This document shows, in pieces, positions 9,925 through 51,686 of a stretch of 51,686 bases of DNA. The position numbers and the translations under genes are program-made. The stretch lies in NCBI GenBank assembly GCA_035498015.1, contig DATKAO010000108.1, positions 1 through 51,686 of the forward strand. Reading direction: 5' to 3'. The stretch is from Myxococcota bacterium. GTDB taxonomy: Bacteria > Myxococcota_A > UBA9160 > SZUA-336. Every line of letters begins with the position of its first letter. Position 1 is the first letter of the stretch. Under the pieces are notes generated by a model. It had not been told where the DNA came from, searched no databases, and was given only the letters and a program-made list of their open reading frames with translations.

Positions 9925-10333
9925 GCCGCGGGATCTCGATCTTCGGGCAGCGGTCCATGACCACCGACAGGCCCGCCTTGCGCGCGCGCTCCGCCGCCGG
10001 CTCGTTCACGACGCCCAGCTGCATCCAGACCGCGCGCGCTTTGGCCGCGATGGCGTCGTCGGTCACGGGTCCGGCCGCTTCGGAGTTGCGAAACACGTCG
10101 ACCAGGTCGATCGGCTCGTCGATCTCGGCCAGGCTCGCGCGCACGCGCTCGCCCAGGATGGTCTCGCCGGCGCAGACCGGGTTCACCGGAATCACCCGGT
10201 AGCCCTGCTGCTGCAGGAAGGCCATGACCTCGTGGCTGTCGCGCTCGGGCTTGGGGCTCGCGCCGACCAGGGCAATCGTGCGCGTTTCTCCGAGGATCCG
10301 CCGGATTTCTGCGTCACTCGTGCGTTCGCTCAT
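9902..10333 (-). CDS. CoA-binding domain protein (YccU type)
   Basis: 143-aa Rossmann-type protein. It starts with a short helix ([11 protein letters not shown]), then [21 protein letters not shown], the nucleotide-binding loop typical of the CoA-binding family, then YRVIPVNP and ETILGERV, and the later segment [32 protein letters not shown], which closely follows the family pattern ending in the Asp-Arg-Cys-Pro-K/E box. It resembles the N-terminal domain of succinyl-CoA synthetase alpha but stands alone. The role is unclear; CoA sensing or protein modification has been proposed. The start ATG at 10333 lies back to back with the acyl-CoA dehydrogenase region, so the promoters must be compressed. 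Confidence 0.85.
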
Positions 10334-43781: not shown

Positions 43782-44705
43782 ATGCGTGGGAAGCTCGTGG
43801 TTGCCGCGGCTTGCCTGTCACTCTGCGCGTTCGCTGCCGGCGCGCGGGCCGATCTGTACCGTTGGGTCGACTCCGAGGGCCAGGTGCACGTGACCGACGA
43901 CCGCGCCCAGGTGCCCCCGGGCGCGACGGTGACCGTGCAGCCGACGCGCGGCAAGAAGCCCGCGAGTGCGCCGGCGCCCACCAGCGCCCCCAGCCCCGCG
44001 GCGGCAAGTCCGGCGCAGCCCGCCAGCAAGCGCTCCGCCTCGCGCGTGCTCGCGCTGGAGCCGCAGGACGGCTCGCGGCCCGGACGGGTGCACGTGCTGC
44101 ACTTCGAGAAGGCGAGTCACGAGATCTCGCTCAACGTGACCCTCGCCGACCGCGCCCAGTGCGAGTTCAAGGTCGACACGGGCGCCTCGCTCAACACCGT
44201 GCCCGCCTGGGTGGTACGCGAGCTGGGGATCGAGATCGACGACGACACGCCGCGCATCTCGCTGGTGGGCATCTCGGGCAAGCCCGCGCTCGTGCCGCTG
44301 ATCGTGATGCCGCTCGTGCGCGTGGGCGACGTCGCCGTCGAGAACGTCGAGATGGCGGTGCTCGACACCATGAGCGAGGGCCTGCTCGGCATGCCCTTCT
44401 TCAATCACTTCCAAGTGGCGATCGACCCGGCCCAGGGCGAGCTGCGACTCACCGAGATCGACCTGTCCAAGGTCGACGGCGTGTACGACGGCATGAACGA
44501 GGCCGCCTGGCGCCAGCGCTTCCGTCAGCTGCACGAGCGGCTGGCCATGATCCAACGCGCGCGCGAGAAGGTGCCCGAGGAGTCGGAGACCATCGCCGCG
44601 AACTACCTCGACAAGCTCGACAAGCTGGAGAGCGCGGCGCAGCACGAGCTCGACGAGCTCGAAGACCGCGCGCAGGCCGCCGGCGTTCCGCCCGGCTGGC
44701 GGTGA
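43782..44705 (+). CDS. exported retropepsin-like aspartic protease with DUF4124 start
   Basis: 307 aa. Signal peptide KLVVAAACLSLCAFAAGARA, then DLYRWVDSEGQVHVTDDRAQVPPG, the DUF4124 pattern of envelope proteins. A Pro/Ala linker follows, and then a retropepsin-like domain with CEFKVDTGASLNTVPAWV (the catalytic Asp-Thr-Gly is present) and VEMAVLDTMSEGLLGMPFFNHF. The last ~80 residues form a coiled coil. It is like the TIGR02281-type clan AA proteases, of which the function is unknown. The ATG is 18 bases after uvrC. It may be co-transcribed with uvrC. Confidence 0.85.
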   Translation: MRGKLVVAAACLSLCAFAAGARADLYRWVDSEGQVHVTDDRAQVPPGATVTVQPTRGKKPASAPAPTSAPSPAAASPAQPASKRSASRVLALEPQDGSRPGRVHVLHFEKASHEISLNVTLADRAQCEFKVDTGASLNTVPAWVVRELGIEIDDDTPRISLVGISGKPALVPLIVMPLVRVGDVAVENVEMAVLDTMSEGLLGMPFFNHFQVAIDPAQGELRLTEIDLSKVDGVYDGMNEAAWRQRFRQLHERLAMIQRAREKVPEESETIAANYLDKLDKLESAAQHELDELEDRAQAAGVPPGWR

Positions 44706-44878
44706 GAAGCGCGGTCCTCCGCAGCGGGAAAGCTTTTCTCCTTGCGCCGGCAGCCCCGAGAGCGCTCCGCGCCACGGGGCTGCGCAACTCCTGACGCAGC
44801 TGGGTGTAGGGCGGGGTGATTCGCGCGAACGCCCGGCGGGAGCCGCGTTTGGCACCGAGCTTGCTACTCACGCGGCGC

Positions 44879-45211
44879 ATGTCGCCGTTTCACCGGAAGA
44901 TCGTCGAGCTCCTGGAAGGTCGCTACGGAGTCAGCCCTGCGTTTGCAGAGCAGTTCGTGCCGGTCTTCGAACAGGTCGCGCAGAGCCGCCCGTCGTCGGA
45001 TGACTGGGAGGCGCTGATGGCCTGCCTCGCCTCGGCCTACCGCTCGCTGCCGCAGGCCGAAGACAAGACGCTCGCCGAGGCCCAGGTGCTGGTCGGGCAG
45101 TTCGTGGGCGAGCTGCAGAAGATCGACGAGTCACTGAAGGTGGTCGGCGTGTTCCTCGAGCGGCTGCGCGAGCAGCTCGGCGCCCCCCAGGTCCTGCGCA
45201 CGCTGCACTGA
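44879..45211 (+). CDS. helical hypothetical protein before comEC
   Basis: 110 aa, no signal peptide, mostly helical (KIVELLEGRYGVSPAFAEQFVPVFEQVAQ; EAQVLVGQFVGELQKIDESLKVVGVFLERLREQL). No family recognised. The ATG at 44879 is chosen because the region upstream looks poor. Its stop overlaps the presumed CTG start of comEC by 4 bases (CTGA), which suggests that both are translated as a unit. The 173-base gap upstream shows no further gene. Confidence 0.6.
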   Translation: MSPFHRKIVELLEGRYGVSPAFAEQFVPVFEQVAQSRPSSDDWEALMACLASAYRSLPQAEDKTLAEAQVLVGQFVGELQKIDESLKVVGVFLERLREQLGAPQVLRTLH

Positions 45212-47466
45212 CCGGCGTCCCTCTACTCCTCCTGCTGGCGCCGTTTGCGGCGGGAATCTGGCTCGAGGACGGGCTCGAGCTCGAGCCGGCATGGGCTGCC
45301 GGCGCGGCGGGCGTGCTCGCTGCGCTGTGGGCGCTGTTTCCGCGCAGCCGGACTGCCGAAGCGGCGCTCGGCGGGGCGCTCGGCGCCCTCGCGCTGGGCC
45401 TGCGCCTGCACGCCCCCGTGCCGACGGCGGAGCCCGGCCCGGTGGCGGTCACCCTGCTCGAGGCACCGCGCGCCAGTCATGGCGCGTGCCGGGTCACCGT
45501 GTGGCTGCACGGGGCGCGGCCGGGCCGGGCGCTGCTGCTCGCGCGCGGCGAGGCCTGCGAGTTGCTCCCCGGCCAGCAGGCGCTCGCGCGCGTGCGGCTC
45601 GAGCCGCTGCGCCCGCCCTCGAACCCGGGCGCGAGTGACTCGCCGCGGCGCCTCGCGCGCCGCGGCGTGCTGCGGCTGGCGAGGCAGAGCGGCGAGGCGC
45701 TGGCCCCGATCGGTCTTCCGCCGCAGGGCCCGGCCGCCCTCTTGGAACGCGCCCGCCGGCACGTGGCCGAGACCCTCGATCCGCCCGCGCTGCCCACGCG
45801 CGCCGGGGCGCTCTTGCGCGCCATGGCCGTCGCCGACACCTCGCGTCTCGACGAGCCGCTGCGCGCCGCCTTCTCCGACTCGGGCACGACGCACCTGTTG
45901 TCGGTCTCGGGCACGCACATCGTGTGGGTGTTCTGGCTGACACAGATCTGTGTCACCGGGCTGCTCGGCCGCCTGCGCGCGTTGGCGTGGGTGCGCGCCG
46001 CGCGCGCGGCGGGCATGGTCGCTGCGGCGGCAGCCGGGCTCGGCTACGCGGCGCTGTGCGGACTGGAGGCGCCGGCGCTGCGCTCGGCGGCGATGGCTGC
46101 GGCGGGCGGCATCGCCTTGCTCGGCGGACGCCGCGGGCTGGGCTGGAACGCGCTGGCCGCCGCGGCCCTGGTCGTGCTCGCGTTCGATCCGGGAGCGCTC
46201 TTCGAGGCGTCGTTCCAGATGTCGTTCGCGGCCGTGGCGGGGCTCCTGCTGTGGCGGGCGCCGGCGGGCGCGCTGCGCGGTCTGGCGCACGCCTCGCTGG
46301 CCGCGGGCACGATCACCGCGCCGCTCGCGGCCGGGCTGGGCGCGCCCCTGCCGGCCGGCTGGCTGCTCGCCAACGCGCTCGCGGTGCCCTGGTTCGGCGC
46401 CGCGGTCGTGCCGCCGGCGCTCGCGGCCGGGCTGGTGCCGGTGCTGGCCCCGCTGGCACGGGCCGCGGCGGAGCTCGGGGTGCGAGGGCTCGAGCTGCTC
46501 GCGACGCCCGACCTGCTCGCGGGCCCGCGCGACCGCGTCGCGCGGGCCGCTCTGTTCGCCGCGCTGGCCTACGGAGCGCGCGGCGCCGCGCAGCGGCGGC
46601 GCGCGCTCTGCGCGTGCTCGGCCGCCGTCGCCGCGCTGAGTCTCTGGCTGGCGTGGCCGGCGGAGAACGAGCCCGTCGACGCCCCGCGACTCACCTTCTT
46701 CGACGTGGGTCACGGCGATGCGGTGCTGGTGCGCGCCGGGCGGCACGCGTGGCTGGTCGACACGGGCACGCGCGCGGCCGACTTCGATGCCGGGCGTTCG
46801 GTCGTCGTGCCGGGCTTGCGCGCGCTCGGCGTGCGCCAGCTCGATGCACTGGCGCTGACTCACGCCGACCTGGACCACGTGGGCGGTGCGCCCGCCGTGC
46901 TCGCCGGGGTGCCCGTCGGCGAGCTGTGGCTCGGCCGCGAGACACACGCCGCCCCGGCGCTGCGTCCGCTGCGCCTGGCAGCGGCGCGGCTGGGCGTGCG
47001 CGTCCGGATCATCGCCGCGGGTGACGCGCTCGGCGTGAGCGAGCTCGCGCTGCGCGTGCACTGGCCGCCGGTCGAGTATCTCGCTCCGACCACGAACGCC
47101 GGGTCACTCGTGCTGCAGGTCGGCGGTCCGCGGGCCTGTGCGCTGCTCGGCGGCGACGCGCCCGGCGCGGTCGAGCGCGCGCTCGCCGGCACACTCCCGC
47201 AGTGCGACGTGCTCAAGCTCGGTCACCACGGCAGCGCGACTTCGAGCGATCCGGAGTGGCTCGATGCGCTCGAGCCCGTGGTCGCGATCGCCAGCGCGGG
47301 CCGCCGCCCGCGCTCGCCGCTGCCGCACCCGGCGGTGCGCGCACGTCTGGGCGCGCGCGCGATCAGCCTGTGGGAGACACGCCGCGCCGGCGCGCTCGAC
47401 GTCGAGCTCGCGCGGCCGGGTCCGCGCGTCGCGCCCTGGCTGAATCCGGAGTGGCGCGACTGGTAA
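45208..47466 (+). CDS. comEC: DNA internalization protein ComEC/Rec2
   Basis: 752 aa if started at CTG 45208. N-terminal helix GVPLLLLLAPFAAGIWLED, OB-like segment (ACRVTVWLHGARPG), the competence domain with SGTTHLLSVSGTHIVWVFWL and CGLEAPALRSAAMAAAGGIALLGGRRG, and many membrane helices. The C-terminal metallo-beta-lactamase domain has VGHGDAVLVRAGRHAWLVDTG, LTHADLDHVGG (HxDxDH) and LKLGHHGSATSS. ComEC makes the inner-membrane pore for transforming DNA; its MBL domain degrades one strand. Between a TGA at 45001 and GTG 45313 there is no ATG, GTG or TTG in frame. Confidence 0.93.
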   Translation: MTGVPLLLLLAPFAAGIWLEDGLELEPAWAAGAAGVLAALWALFPRSRTAEAALGGALGALALGLRLHAPVPTAEPGPVAVTLLEAPRASHGACRVTVWLHGARPGRALLLARGEACELLPGQQALARVRLEPLRPPSNPGASDSPRRLARRGVLRLARQSGEALAPIGLPPQGPAALLERARRHVAETLDPPALPTRAGALLRAMAVADTSRLDEPLRAAFSDSGTTHLLSVSGTHIVWVFWLTQICVTGLLGRLRALAWVRAARAAGMVAAAAAGLGYAALCGLEAPALRSAAMAAAGGIALLGGRRGLGWNALAAAALVVLAFDPGALFEASFQMSFAAVAGLLLWRAPAGALRGLAHASLAAGTITAPLAAGLGAPLPAGWLLANALAVPWFGAAVVPPALAAGLVPVLAPLARAAAELGVRGLELLATPDLLAGPRDRVARAALFAALAYGARGAAQRRRALCACSAAVAALSLWLAWPAENEPVDAPRLTFFDVGHGDAVLVRAGRHAWLVDTGTRAADFDAGRSVVVPGLRALGVRQLDALALTHADLDHVGGAPAVLAGVPVGELWLGRETHAAPALRPLRLAAARLGVRVRIIAAGDALGVSELALRVHWPPVEYLAPTTNAGSLVLQVGGPRACALLGGDAPGAVERALAGTLPQCDVLKLGHHGSATSSDPEWLDALEPVVAIASAGRRPRSPLPHPAVRARLGARAISLWETRRAGALDVELARPGPRVAPWLNPEWRDW

Positions 47467-47469
47467 GAT
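47461..47469 (+). promoter_or_regulatory. extended -10 box overlapping the comEC stop
   Basis: TGG-TAAGAT ends 9 bases before the ATG at 47479, giving a leader of only about 3 bases for the small membrane protein gene. Confidence 0.35.
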
Positions 47470-47478
47470 CCCGCGCCG

Positions 47479-47634
47479 ATGGCTCGCAGGCCCGACAACG
47501 TCGACCCGGAGACCTGGAAGGCGCAGCGCGCCGCGCACTGGAAGCGGGTGAATCGCGTCTGGAACGTGCTGATGGTGCTCGCCATCCTGCTGGTCGCTTT
47601 GCGCTGGTTCGGCTGGCTACCGGGATTCGGCTAG
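47479..47634 (+). CDS. 51-aa single-span membrane protein
   Basis: Starts ATG ARRPDNVDPETWKAQRAAH, a positively charged cytoplasmic part, then one membrane helix (VLMVLAILLVALRWFGWL) with a short end PGFG. The residues just before the helix (HWKRVNRVW) favour an N-in orientation. No family recognised; small proteins of this type often bind membrane partners. It is too short to be seen in standard gene lists. The 3' end overlaps the convergent gmhB by 18 bases. The TGG-TAAGAT extended -10 before the ATG supports its being real. Confidence 0.6.
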   Translation: MARRPDNVDPETWKAQRAAHWKRVNRVWNVLMVLAILLVALRWFGWLPGFG

Positions 47635-48114
47635 CACGTAGCGGCGCACCGCCTCGAGCAGACTCGAAGCATCGGCTCCGATCCGCACCGCGGCGCAGCC
47701 CACCGCGCGCGCCAGGCCCACGTCGCTGTCCTGGTCGCCGATCACCCAGCTGCGCGCGAGATCCACCGCCAGCTCGCGCTGCGCGCGCACGACCAGCCCC
47801 GGCCGCGGCTTGCGGCACTCACAGCCCGCGTCCGGCCGGTGCGGGCAGTGGTAGTCGGCGTCGAGCTCCGCGCCGTGCGCGGCGAAGTCCCGGCGCAGGT
47901 GCGCCTGGAAGCGCCCGTAGTCGTCTTCGCCGTACAGACCGCGTCCGATCCCGGACTGGTTGGTGACGATCGCGGTCCCGAAGCCCGCGGCGCGCAGCGC
48001 GCGCACCGCCTCGTAGGCGCCCGGCAACGGCGCGTAGTCCTCGAGCTTGTGCACGTAGCCGCGGTCCTCGATCAGCGTGCCGTCGCGGTCGAGGAACACG
48101 AAGGGGCGAGTCAC
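47617..48114 (-). CDS. gmhB: D-glycero-D-manno-heptose-1,7-bisphosphate 7-phosphatase (GmhB-type)
   Basis: 165-aa HAD-type phosphatase. RPFVFLDRDGTLIEDRGYV has the nucleophile and acid Asp; FGTAIVTNQSGIGRGLY is the second motif; YHCPHRPDAGCECRKPRPG has the Cys/His zinc site that separates GmhB and HisB-N from other HADs; SWVIGDQDSDVGLARAVGC gives the last Asp pair. It makes the heptose precursor of LPS. Histidinol-phosphate phosphatase (HisB-N) is the alternative; a single-domain protein near LPS genes favours GmhB. GTG start; GTGA overlap with the upstream aminopeptidase gene. Confidence 0.8.
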   Translation of the reverse strand: MTRPFVFLDRDGTLIEDRGYVHKLEDYAPLPGAYEAVRALRAAGFGTAIVTNQSGIGRGLYGEDDYGRFQAHLRRDFAAHGAELDADYHCPHRPDAGCECRKPRPGLVVRAQRELAVDLARSWVIGDQDSDVGLARAVGCAAVRIGADASSLLEAVRRYVLAESR

Positions 48115-49196
48115 TTCGCCTCCTCGCAGCCCTCGGGCCGGTGACCCGGCTTCTCGCGATGGGCCTTCACGAACGCCGTCAGGTCGCCGCCCAGGCCGGC
48201 GAGCTCGCGCTCGAAGCAAGGCACCAGGCCCAAGTAGTCGCGGTTCCCGACGATCCACGCGTTGCTGAGCTCGAGTGACTGGAAGCGCGCGAAGCGCTGG
48301 CTCTTCCAGGGCTGCGCCGCGTACACCTCGGTCTGGTAGCGCGCGAAGATCGGCGCGCGGCGCGCGCGCGCTTCTTCGGGCGTGAGCTTCTCGGCGTAGA
48401 GCGCATCGAGCGCGTTGCGCAGCTCGTTCAACAGGCGCGCGAACGTGAGCTCGTCGGCGAAGGCCTCACGGGCGCGTTCGGCGAGCTCGGGCCGGTCGGC
48501 GAAATACTGCAGCGTCGCGTGGTGCGCGACGAACGTGGCCAGGCTCTCGTCGTAGGACACGTCGCTCGGCACGTACACCGTGAGGTGGGTCTGCTCGTGG
48601 ATCGCGGTGTCGACCAGCTCCTCGATCGGCCAGCGCAGGATCGGGCGGGGCAGCGGGTCCTCGAACCAGCCCAGCGTGGAGTAGAGCGGCGAGGGCCGCA
48701 GATACACGTCGAGGCCCTCCGAGCGCAGCTCGTCGGCGAAGGCCTGCGCGCGCGCCGCGTCGAAGTAGCCGCGGTACGACACGCTGCCCACGATCGGGAA
48801 CCACCACTCCACCGGCCGCAGCGCGTTCGCGGGCGCGGCGGTCACCACCTGCACCAGCCAGTCCTTCCCCGTGTCGGCCAGGCGGCTGTAGCTTGTGGTC
48901 TGCCTGAGGCCGAGCGACTCTCCGAAGGCGATCGCGCTGCGGAACGCCTCGTAGTTGGTGCGCTCCTCGGGCGGCAGCTGGGCGATCTTCTCGGGCGTGA
49001 GTGACTCGCGCGACCACAGGAGCCGGAGCTGCCCGATGCCCACGTGAGTGAGATAGGACAGCATGTTGTCGGCGCGCGCGGACGCGCCGGGGAGGAGGAG
49101 CCAGAGTGCGCAGGCGAGCGCCCGCCGAAAGCTGGATCGCCCGGCTCGAGGCGCCGCAGGCCGAGGCGGAGCGCCTGGTGGCCGAGCTGTGGTCAC
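48111..49196 (-). CDS. predicted zinc aminopeptidase (COG4324-like)
   Basis: 361 aa. Signal segment RRALACALWLLLPGASARAD; the body starts NMLSYLTHVGIGQLRLLWSRE, as in the putative aminopeptidase family COG4324. IEELVDTAIHEQTHLTVYVPSDVSYDESLATFVAHHATL holds the zinc motif HExxH (HEQTH) with the third-ligand Glu in DESLATF. Many Trp/Tyr residues follow. The substrate is unknown. The start at 49196 puts 91 bases over the divergent prmA gene, but a shorter start would lose the signal segment. The stop overlaps gmhB. Confidence 0.8.
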   Translation of the reverse strand: MTTARPPGAPPRPAAPRAGRSSFRRALACALWLLLPGASARADNMLSYLTHVGIGQLRLLWSRESLTPEKIAQLPPEERTNYEAFRSAIAFGESLGLRQTTSYSRLADTGKDWLVQVVTAAPANALRPVEWWFPIVGSVSYRGYFDAARAQAFADELRSEGLDVYLRPSPLYSTLGWFEDPLPRPILRWPIEELVDTAIHEQTHLTVYVPSDVSYDESLATFVAHHATLQYFADRPELAERAREAFADELTFARLLNELRNALDALYAEKLTPEEARARRAPIFARYQTEVYAAQPWKSQRFARFQSLELSNAWIVGNRDYLGLVPCFERELAGLGGDLTAFVKAHREKPGHRPEGCEEAK

Positions 49197-49972
49197 TCGG
49201 CACCTCCGGCATCGAGGAGCGCGCCGCCGACGGCGCGCTCGAGCGGGTCGAGCTGCGCGCGTGGTTCGCGGCCGCGGGCGCGCCCGCCGAGGCGCTGCGC
49301 GCGCTGGCCGACCCGGCGCGCGCGGTCCGGCTCGTGGAGCTCGCGCCCGTGGTGGCGCAGGACTGGGAGGTCGCCTGGCGCGCGGGGCTCGCGCCCCGGC
49401 GCATCGGCGGGCTGTGGGTGCGGCCGAGCTTCTGCGCCCAGGCCGGCTCGCCCGAGCTCGTGATCGACCCGCAGCAGGCGTTCGGCTCGGGCGAGCACGC
49501 GACCACCCGGCTCTCGCTCGAGCTCTTGCAGGAGGCGCTGCGGCCCGGAGACACGGTGCTCGACCTCGGCACCGGCAGCGGGATCCTGGGCCTGGGCGCG
49601 CTGCGCCGCGGCGCGGCGGCCGCGACCGGCATCGACGCCGATCCCGTGGCGCTGGTGAACGCGGCCGAGAACCGCGCGCGCAACGGGCTGCCGCTGCGTC
49701 TGGCCTGCGCCACGCTCGACGCGCTCGCGCCCGGGGCGCGCTTCGACGTGGTGGTCGCGAACCTCCTCTTGCACGAGCTCCTGCCGTGTCTCGCCGACCT
49801 GCTCGCGCGCGCGCGGCGCGTGGCGATCCTCTCCGGCTATCTCGCGCGCGAACGAGTCAGCCTGGAGCGGGCGCTCGCGAGTCACCCGTTCGCGACCGCC
49901 CGGGAGTCGAGCGAGATCCAGTCCGGCGACCGCTGGTGCGCGCGCCTGTTGACTCAAGCCGCGGCCCGGTAG
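49106..49972 (+). CDS. prmA: ribosomal protein L11 methyltransferase
   Basis: 288 aa. The N-terminal L11-binding part (SWIARLEAPQAEAERLVAELW, TSGIEERAADG) is followed by FGSGEHATTRLSLELLQEAL, the family hallmark GTGxHxTT variant, and a SAM motif TVLDLGTGSGILGLGALRRG, then FDVVVANLLLHELLPCLADLLAR (NIL-type motif as NLL). It trimethylates ribosomal protein L11. The GTG at 49106 has an excellent GGAGGAGG just before it. The 3' end overlaps the convergent epimerase gene by 19 bases. Confidence 0.92.
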   Translation: MRRRAPAESWIARLEAPQAEAERLVAELWSLGTSGIEERAADGALERVELRAWFAAAGAPAEALRALADPARAVRLVELAPVVAQDWEVAWRAGLAPRRIGGLWVRPSFCAQAGSPELVIDPQQAFGSGEHATTRLSLELLQEALRPGDTVLDLGTGSGILGLGALRRGAAAATGIDADPVALVNAAENRARNGLPLRLACATLDALAPGARFDVVVANLLLHELLPCLADLLARARRVAILSGYLARERVSLERALASHPFATARESSEIQSGDRWCARLLTQAAAR

Positions 49973-50898
49973 GCGTCGAGCAGCGCGTCGAAGGCGTCGT
50001 CCGCGGAGCGCTGCGGCGCCCAGCCGAGCGCGCGCAGGCGGCTGGCGTCGCCCGCGAACGCCACGCCGTCGGGCGGGAGCTCGCGGAAGCGCGCGGGGTC
50101 GACTTCGACCCGCGGCCGCGCGCTCGAGCGCGCGATCAGGCGCTCGAGCACGGATCGCATCGAGCGGCGCACGCCCGAGCACACGTTGTACGTGTCACCG
50201 CGCGCGCCGCGTTCGAGCAGCAGCACGTAGGCGGCCGCGACGTCGCGCACGTCGGAGTAGTCGCGCACGGGCGCGAGGTTGCCGACGCGCAGCACGGGCT
50301 CCTGCGCGCCGCGCTCGATGCGCGCGAGCTGCTCCGCGAACGACGACTCCGCGTACAGCGCCGGCCGGCCCGGCCCGGTGTGATTGAACGGCCGGGCGAT
50401 CACGGCGTCGAGCCCGGCGTCCTCCACCGCCCAGCCCACGCGCACTTCGCCCGCGGCCTTGGTCGCCGCGTACAGGTTCATGGGCCGCAGCGCATCGCTC
50501 TCGACGCGTGCCGGTGCGTCGGCGCGCGCGGGGCCGTAGACCTCGCCGGTGGACACGAACAGGAGCCGGGCGGGCGCGGCCGCGAGCGCGGCCAGCAGTG
50601 AATCGAGCGCGAGATAGTTGGCGCGCAGCGCCTCGAGCGGCGCGCGCTCGGCCTCCGCAGGCGCGGCAAGCGCAGCCAGGTGGATCACCTCGACCGGGCG
50701 GACCTCGGCCACGAGCCGCGCGAGCGCTCCCCGGTCCCGCAGGTCGCAGGCGCGCCAGTCCACGTCGCCGGCGGCCCCGGGCGGAAGACCCGGCAGGTGC
50801 ACGCCCACGACCTCGCGGCCGGCGGCGCGCAGGGCGGGAATCAGGTGACCCCCGACGAAGCCGGCGGCGCCCGTGACGAGTGTCCGCACGCGATTCAC
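49954..50898 (-). CDS. NAD-dependent epimerase/dehydratase, GDP-4-keto-6-deoxymannose reductase-like
   Basis: 314-aa extended short-chain dehydrogenase. N-terminal NAD loop VTGAAGFVGGHLIPAL; LLFVSTGEVYG with the catalytic Ser/Thr; MNLYAATKAAGEV with YxxxK; RPFNHTGPGRPALYAESSFAEQLA and LRVGNLAPVRDYSDVRDVAAAYVLLLE and YNVCSGVRRSMR match the RMD branch, which makes GDP-D-rhamnose. The exact sugar is not certain. GTG 50898 or 50889 can be the start. It is near gmhB and may serve surface polysaccharide synthesis. Confidence 0.82.
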   Translation of the reverse strand: MNRVRTLVTGAAGFVGGHLIPALRAAGREVVGVHLPGLPPGAAGDVDWRACDLRDRGALARLVAEVRPVEVIHLAALAAPAEAERAPLEALRANYLALDSLLAALAAAPARLLFVSTGEVYGPARADAPARVESDALRPMNLYAATKAAGEVRVGWAVEDAGLDAVIARPFNHTGPGRPALYAESSFAEQLARIERGAQEPVLRVGNLAPVRDYSDVRDVAAAYVLLLERGARGDTYNVCSGVRRSMRSVLERLIARSSARPRVEVDPARFRELPPDGVAFAGDASRLRALGWAPQRSADDAFDALLDAYRAAA

Positions 50899-50921
50899 CG
50901 GGCGCGAGGCTAGCACGCAAG

Positions 50922-50930
50922 TGTTACTCT
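50922..50930 (+). promoter_or_regulatory. extended -10 box before the deaminase fusion gene
   Basis: TG-T-TACTCT, 22 bases before the ATG at 50953, closely like the box before carD. A strong ribosome site (GGGGAGGAG) lies between them. Confidence 0.45.
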
Positions 50931-50952
50931 GCAGCCCAGGGGAGGAGAGACG

Positions 50953-51686
50953 ATGAAGGTCGGCGTCGCCGGAACGATCGCGGCAGGCAAAGGCGAGGTG
51001 GTGCGCCTGCTGGAGCGCCGCGGCTTCTACCCGGCCTCGCTCTCCGACGTGATCCGCGCCGACCTGGCGCGCGACGGGCTCGAGCCCACGCGCGAGAACA
51101 TGATCGAGCGCGGCCGCGCGCTGCGCGAGCGCTTCGGCTCGGCGGTGCTGGCCGAGCGGGTGCAGCGCATGCTGCCGTCGGACCGCAACCACGTGATCGA
51201 CTCGATCCGCCACCCCTCCGAGGTCGAGGCGCTGCGCGCGGGCGGCGACTTCCTGCTCCTGTGGATCGACGCCGACCCGCGGCTGCGCTTCGAGCGCTCG
51301 CTCACGCGCGCACGGCCGGGCGACGGCGCCGACTTCGAGACCTTCCAGTCGCTCGAGGCGCGCGAGCTCGGCAGCGGCGACCGGGCCGCGCAGCAGCTGC
51401 TCGCCGTGCGCGACCTCGCCGACCGAGTGATTCGCAACGAGGGCGACCTGGCTGCGCTCGAGGCGCAGCTCGAGGAGGTGCTGCGCGACCGTCTGTTCTT
51501 TCGCGACCGGCCGCCGTGGGACGAGTACTTCATGAACATCGCGCGCGTGGTCGCCTCGCGCAGCAACTGCATCAAGCGCAAGGTCGGCGCCGTGATCGCG
51601 CTCGACCGCCGCATCATCTCGACCGGCTACAACGGCACGCCGCGCGGCATCCGCAACTGCAACGAGGGCGGCTGCCCGCGCTGCGC
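50953..51686 (+). CDS. P-loop kinase-like / dCMP deaminase fusion (partial)
   Basis: At least 244 residues, open at the window end. N-terminal P-loop: KVGVAGTIAAGKGEVVRLL, then SLSDVIRADLARDGLEPTRENMIERGRAL, HVIDSIRHPSEVEALRAGG and WIDADPRLRFERSL, like a dNMP or dephospho-CoA kinase. Residues ~175-244 begin a deoxycytidylate deaminase: DEYFMNIARVVASRSNCIKRKVGAVIAL and STGYNGTPRGIRNCNEGGCPRC. The HAE and PCxxC zinc site lies outside the window. It converts dCMP to dUMP for dTTP; the role of the N-terminal NTPase is less clear. The ATG has GGAGGAG before it. Confidence 0.88.
   Translation, partial: MKVGVAGTIAAGKGEVVRLLERRGFYPASLSDVIRADLARDGLEPTRENMIERGRALRERFGSAVLAERVQRMLPSDRNHVIDSIRHPSEVEALRAGGDFLLLWIDADPRLRFERSLTRARPGDGADFETFQSLEARELGSGDRAAQQLLAVRDLADRVIRNEGDLAALEAQLEEVLRDRLFFRDRPPWDEYFMNIARVVASRSNCIKRKVGAVIALDRRIISTGYNGTPRGIRNCNEGGCPRC

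Follow-up and report, generated by a model that had tools for sequence, protein, structure and literature searches.

For dCMP deaminases, dCTP is commonly an activator and dTTP an inhibitor. Some deaminases of this kind act in anti-phage defence. PMC10511110 describes AvcD as an enzyme that deaminates dCMP and dCTP and that is held in check by an RNA, AvcI; AvcD is also treated in PMC9455884. A dCTP site is mentioned for CDADC1 in PMC12088426. In the literature that we searched, which was mostly papers outside subscription, we found no description of a kinase-deaminase fusion as a replacement for cytidylate kinase (Cmk). Here, we describe such a fusion from a genome of the Myxococcota.

A kinase-deaminase fusion gene at a contig end

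The window spans contig C108 (DATKAO010000108.1; 51,686 nucleotides) from end to end, in a genome of 257 contigs (G000). Its last open reading frame starts with an ATG at 50953 and stays open for 244 codons, to 51684 at the contig end (Table 1). A sequence-only reading had described this frame as a P-loop NTPase fused to a dCMP deaminase and had suggested looking past the window end for the HAE and PCxxC motifs. Both points held up. The partial protein matches AAA_18 (PF13238, E 4e-7) and, from about residue 184, the deaminase family PF00383 (E 1e-7). When we searched it against its own genome, there was a 100% identity match at the extreme end of another contig, C157. Reading across the overlap, the frame continues to a stop codon and gives a 331-amino-acid protein with HAEEN and PCLIC intact, which completes the zinc site.

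Could the join be an accident of assembly, so that the real 3′ end differs? These are two contigs of an incomplete metagenome assembly, in which alternative assembly branches are invisible. But the overlap is exact over 141 bases at both contig ends, the frame is open across it, and the product is collinear with relatives that lie on single contigs (for example, L005/L025, from the same genus), so we consider an accident extremely improbable. Relatives carry the whole protein within one contig, so a chance reading looks implausible for the fusion as well as for the join. On the C157 side, a direct repeat several tens of bases long (L024, approximately 9961-10125) lies right after the stop codon, in and around the gap to a gene for a V4R-domain protein.

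Table 1. Features at the downstream end of the window
Feature	Position	Strand	Remarks
PrmA-like methyltransferase	49106..49972	+	relative upstream on the same strand in 37/80 fusion loci (direct comparison), 39 by clustering
Divergent NAD-dependent epimerase	49954..50892	-	relative in 45/80 fusion loci (44 upstream, opposite strand) and 5/19 kinase-only loci
60-bp spacer to the divergent neighbour	50893..50952		
Purine-rich stretch ggggaggagag	50939..50949	+	resembles a ribosome-binding site (sequence)
5′ part of the kinase-dCMP deaminase fusion gene, codons 1-244 of 331	50953..51684	+	continues in C157
N-terminal P-loop NMP-kinase-like domain, residues 1-179	50953..51489	+	AAA_18; PRK08356-like below cut-off; L039 model matches 3lw7/3h0k
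P-loop GTIAAGKG, residues 7-14	50971..50994	+	sequence
SLSDVIR, residues 29-35	51037..51057	+	aligned with the LSTGDLLR motif of adenylate kinase 1
DSIRHP, residues 83-88	51199..51216	+	aligned with the DGYPRE region of adenylate kinase 1
Start of the dCMP deaminase domain, residues 184-244	51502..51684	+	HAEEN and PCLIC sit in C157
141 bases identical to the end of C157 (reverse strand), same genome	51546..51686		exact overlap

The protein combines two domains: one has the fold of a P-loop NMP kinase, with its catalytic residues conserved, and the other is a dCMP deaminase whose zinc site is intact. The fold was modelled from an alignment of 60 sequences with a relative (L039, 74% identical in the best segment) as its first row. 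The model is confident within the domains (mean pLDDT 91.5), but the arrangement of the domains is less sure because the pTM is 0.70. The kinase half (residues 1-181) is nearest to 3lw7 (Z 22.2, rmsd 1.9 over 166), an adenylate-kinase-related Sulfolobus protein with AMP bound, and to 3h0k (Z ~22); phosphomevalonate kinases and adenylate kinases come next (Z ~15-16). The regions of adenylate kinase 1 that align with SLSDVIR and DSIRHP are NMP-binding. Furthermore, 20 conserved kinase positions that we chose are identical in all of the proteins aligned (20/20 fusions and 16/16 kinase-only proteins).

In Pfam, 30 kinase domains matched AAA_18, AAA_17, or AAA_33, with weak matches to CoaE (6/30), to the model for phage deoxynucleotide monophosphate kinases (DNMK, 5/30), and to ADK (2/30). 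The protein scores below the cut-off of PRK08356 (83.2 bits for the 244-amino-acid part and 81.5 for the whole, against 189). There was no match to the Cmk family (PF02224), either with the partial protein (E threshold 1) or with the 30 kinase domains (E threshold 0.001).

The deaminase half belongs with the dCMP deaminases of the CDA superfamily by its zinc site (HxE plus PCxxC) and by its fold (Z 22.4 and rmsd 1.6 over 138 between the L039 model and the S. mutans dCMP deaminase). It scores 109.4 bits against the ComEB model TIGR02571, whose equivalog cut-off is 219.45 bits. The sequence-only reading had held that the gene would be purely housekeeping if the genome had no other dCMP deaminase and needed this one for thymidylate. 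The first half of this stands, as the sole other PF00383 protein in G000 is RibD. The second half does not stand in full: the genome also encodes Dcd (TIGR02274; score 112.5 bits, cut-off 92.8), which offers another possible route to dUMP. Given Dcd, a second PF22769 match (which we take to be Dut), ThyA, and Tmk, we rejected the deaminase as the sole source of dUMP. A search for ThyX in G000 found none. In the same search, 19 of the 20 genomes with a match showed two PF02511 matches, 100-300 bp apart on one strand and with the same open-frame length, which suggests a tandem or fused double ThyX.

Conservation of the fusion and its relation to AvcD

The fusion is a conserved core gene of the window's class and follows its bacterial lineage. 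We searched 39 related genomes, counting that of the window, with the partial protein; 34 gave a match and 5 did not. In 30 of the 39, the match runs along nearly the whole query and the gene is fused, while in another four (G012, G014, G020, G022) it lies mostly on the kinase half. On a tree of 22 members of the class, the seven family labels need six changes, which is the minimum possible; clades f1 (100/98) and f6 (100/99) are well supported and clades f2 (87/82) and f7 (90/57) are weaker.

The fusion also extends beyond the class. A scan of one genome per species returned 448 relatives, and the best 80 of these come from records labelled Deltaproteobacteria/Myxococcota, Acidobacteria, Omnitrophota, Micrarchaeota, Nitrospinia, Tectomicrobia, and others. 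We read 79 of the best 80 for motifs (L047, which has no clean full frame, was left out). All 79 have GxxxxGK[GST], and all 79 have H[AG]EEN and PCxxC.

The neighbours are ordinary. Besides the conserved epimerase and methyltransferase genes (Table 1), the neighbours that we scanned on C108 encode a ComEC-like protein, a HAD phosphatase, and an aminopeptidase, and those on C157 encode V4R, HD/response-regulator, PP2C, dehydrogenase, and SRAP domain proteins. The PADLOC matches among ten neighbours look like generic domain resemblances. None of 72,556 plasmid records and 50,697 phage records covers 80% of the protein. Among the best 80 of 180 viral relatives, none aligns before residue 161.

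The sequence-only reading had left two options for the fusion: AvcD-like defence, or the same layout in housekeeping deaminases of delta-type bacteria. The second is supported by the conservation of the fusion in the class and in genomes labelled as other phyla. The first did not survive, and we consider it very unlikely that the protein is an AvcD-type anti-phage dCTP/dCMP deaminase that is restrained by an RNA and freed upon infection. The protein does share with AvcD a P-loop domain and a deaminase with HAE and PCxxC, in the identical order. A profile comparison with AvcD-type proteins matches along the whole length (E 2e-41), so that the two are homologous along both domains, and the PADLOC dCTPase model matches the fusion protein at 167 bits. 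There is also a weak match (27%, E 5e-6) on an unverified phage-labelled human gut scaffold (MT838710.1, unannotated, L138, 841-1587), which spans residues 3-232 and so runs through the kinase half into the beginning of the deaminase half. But against NF041025 (anti-phage dCTP deaminase) the 331-amino-acid protein scores 119.7 bits, far short of the cut-off of 400, and the ten AvcD-type open reading frames that we read encode 501-577 amino acids. Instead of being accessory, patchy, or linked to mobile elements, the gene is conserved in its class, with a tree that follows the families and with conserved neighbours. The upstream spacer is 60 bp, and Rfam gave no match in 44000-51686 (AvcI itself may not be in Rfam); the 150 nt upstream are no more stably folded than shuffled versions (z −0.48). 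Finally, true AvcD is a separate gene in two genomes that have the fusion, one of them (G001) from the same genus as the window. We rejected AvcD-type identity on score, length, neighbours, and distribution.

True AvcD-type genes are patchy in the phylum: 11/283 genomes have one over the cut-off, as a separate gene. In G001 (L125, L167) and G021 (L124, L168), the core fusion coexists with a full-length AvcD-type gene whose P-loop has decayed. In another genome (G249), an AvcD-type system is split into adjacent open reading frames on the same strand, one kinase-like (193 amino acids) and one for the deaminase (284 amino acids; L134/L136).

The P-loop lysine is lost in 10/10 AvcD-type proteins of the phylum, whereas 15/15 fusions are intact (nine kinase positions were checked). 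We also searched viral contigs with an AvcD-type query and found 52 loci, 50 of which reach both domains by their tblastn ranges (all but L300 and L303). Fourteen of the 52 passed a motif filter that demanded a lysine at position 86 and that did not have the P-loop among its criteria. A lysine aligns with position 13 in just 1 of these 14 (L269, where it is not in GK). We infer that the AvcD-type enzymes are relatives whose kinase half turned into a pseudokinase, with the fusion as the intact relative; this proposal comes from the homology and the lost catalytic residues, and its direction is not rooted by any tree.

Canonical cytidylate kinase is nearly always missing from genomes with the kinase domain

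We surveyed 283 genomes of the phylum that are at least 90% complete. The kinase domain is present in 73 of them (46 fused, 27 alone), counting matches to about E 3e-32; genomes with weaker matches, such as G031 and G138, were scored as lacking it. Cmk (PF02224, scored from ten candidates per genome in this set) is present in 1/73 genomes with the kinase domain and in 194/210 of the others (P = 4e-50, Fisher exact test, which ignores phylogeny). The sole genome with both, G217, has a contamination of 9%. Sixteen of the 283 genomes have neither. Eight of these belong to the class of the window, among them G010 (95% complete) and G019 (98%). The absence of Cmk would not be lethal by itself, as E. 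coli tolerates the loss of cmk.

Two other sets, for which nearly all or all of the PF02224 candidates were scored, agree. First, Cmk is over the cut-off in 0 of the 39 related genomes, as compared to 13 of 14 control genomes (9/39 have fragments below the cut-off). Second, Cmk is over the cut-off in 0 of 28 fusion genomes that we reached from their loci (4/28 have fragments below the cut-off), one of which was deposited as a chromosome (CP070734). These 28 were picked by hand from the best 80 loci: 26 have titles other than Myxococcota or Deltaproteobacteria, and we added L054 and L069. By label, 12 are Acidobacteria, 5 are Omnitrophota, 5 are Micrarchaeota or ainarchaeum, 4 are others, and 2 are from the Myxococcota side. 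For Acidobacteriota and Omnitrophota, our sample consists of fusion genomes.

Our preferred explanation for this complementarity is that the kinase half probably stands in for the absent cytidylate kinase. An alternative, to which we give a smaller but substantial chance, is that the protein is a housekeeping dCMP deaminase whose kinase-like domain is an allosteric nucleotide sensor, or phosphorylates a substrate other than CMP or dCMP (for instance dTMP, dUMP, or dephospho-CoA), while another kinase fills the gap left by Cmk. The domain is nearest to UPF0200, with weaker resemblance to CoaE and adenylate kinase, and UPF0200 was solved with AMP and not CMP, which counts against a CMP-kinase reading. 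(Our literature search found no paper that names UPF0200 together with kinase.) Cytidylate_kin2 (PF13189) is strong in 23/73 of the genomes with the kinase domain and could phosphorylate CMP there. The sensor or other-substrate explanation does not account for the complementarity with Cmk in the 283 genomes or for the absence of Cmk from the 28 fusion genomes. Also, the kinase is retained where the deaminase half is gone, so a purely regulatory domain is a poor explanation.

Of the other candidates, Cytidylate_kin2 was rejected as a general replacement because it is strong in those 23/73 genomes alone and was not found when we searched G000 and G001. Replacement of thymidylate kinase was rejected because Tmk is present in 35/39 relatives, which also speaks against dTMP as the substrate. 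CoaE, Adk, Gmk, and PyrH are further kinases that the domain might replace.

On the kinase tree, the well-supported branches require a minimum of four switches between the fused and the kinase-only form. Of the 19 kinase-only loci, five, in family f3, retain the epimerase neighbour, so that there the kinase was kept and the deaminase half was probably lost in situ. Seven of the 19 (L141-L144, L146, L149, and L150) have neighbours in common. Conversely, two genomes that have Cmk encode fusion-type deaminases whose N-terminus has no kinase motifs (L154, 4445-5335, in G112; L155, 4467-5321, in G134). These N-termini are possibly a decayed kinase half; a kinase HMM run on both did not detect it.

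Proposed role and comparison with known systems

We propose that the protein is a core bifunctional enzyme of pyrimidine metabolism in which the kinase half replaces Cmk and the deaminase half makes dUMP, both drawing on dCMP. From the sequence evidence, we think that this is somewhat more probable than not. The kinase half would take over from Cmk in phosphorylating CMP and/or dCMP, the deaminase half would convert dCMP to dUMP for thymidylate, and the two halves would compete for dCMP. As both would use dCMP, the enzyme would sit at a branch point, sending dCMP back to dCTP or on to dTTP. If activation by dCTP and inhibition by dTTP hold here, then the protein would be a self-contained switch.

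More broadly, and more tentatively, an unnamed family of (d)CMP kinases may have displaced Cmk in several bacterial phyla and in some Micrarchaeota, often as a fusion with a dCMP deaminase, which would let a single protein direct dCMP back to dCTP or on to dTTP, and AvcD may have arisen from it by decay of the kinase to a pseudokinase and expansion of the deaminase half. We put the chance of this wider scenario at a little under even. If true, it would fill a gap in the pyrimidine metabolism of Myxococcota, Acidobacteriota, Omnitrophota, and some Micrarchaeota, and it would suggest where AvcD got its P-loop domain and what that domain does. The idea also lends itself to a simple complementation test. 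A practical consequence is that a loose threshold in a defence scan (such as the 167 bits for the PADLOC dCTPase model) could mislabel a core metabolic gene as defence.

How does the protein compare with known systems? With AvcD it shares a P-loop domain followed by a zinc-dependent deaminase, with homology along both. However, the AvcD-type proteins are longer (501-577 amino acids), patchy, found on viral contigs, and without the P-loop lysine in all ten cases from the phylum, while the window protein has 331 amino acids and an intact P-loop and is conserved in its class. The UPF0200/PRK08356/AdkA-like proteins (3lw7, 3h0k) come closest to the kinase half in sequence and, among solved structures, in fold, but the solved UPF0200 proteins are single-domain Sulfolobus proteins of ~180 amino acids. 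Cmk is also a P-loop NMP kinase, and we propose that the kinase half catalyzes the same reaction, but PF02224 does not recognize the kinase half and the two occur in complementary sets of genomes. Finally, dCMP deaminases (ComEB and the S. mutans, T4, and human DCTD enzymes) have the deaminase fold, HAE, PCxxC, and the TGYNGTP motif in common with the window protein, which differs in being fused to a kinase and in having an extra Cys-rich motif (NEGGCPRC, with C-x-C before HAEEN).
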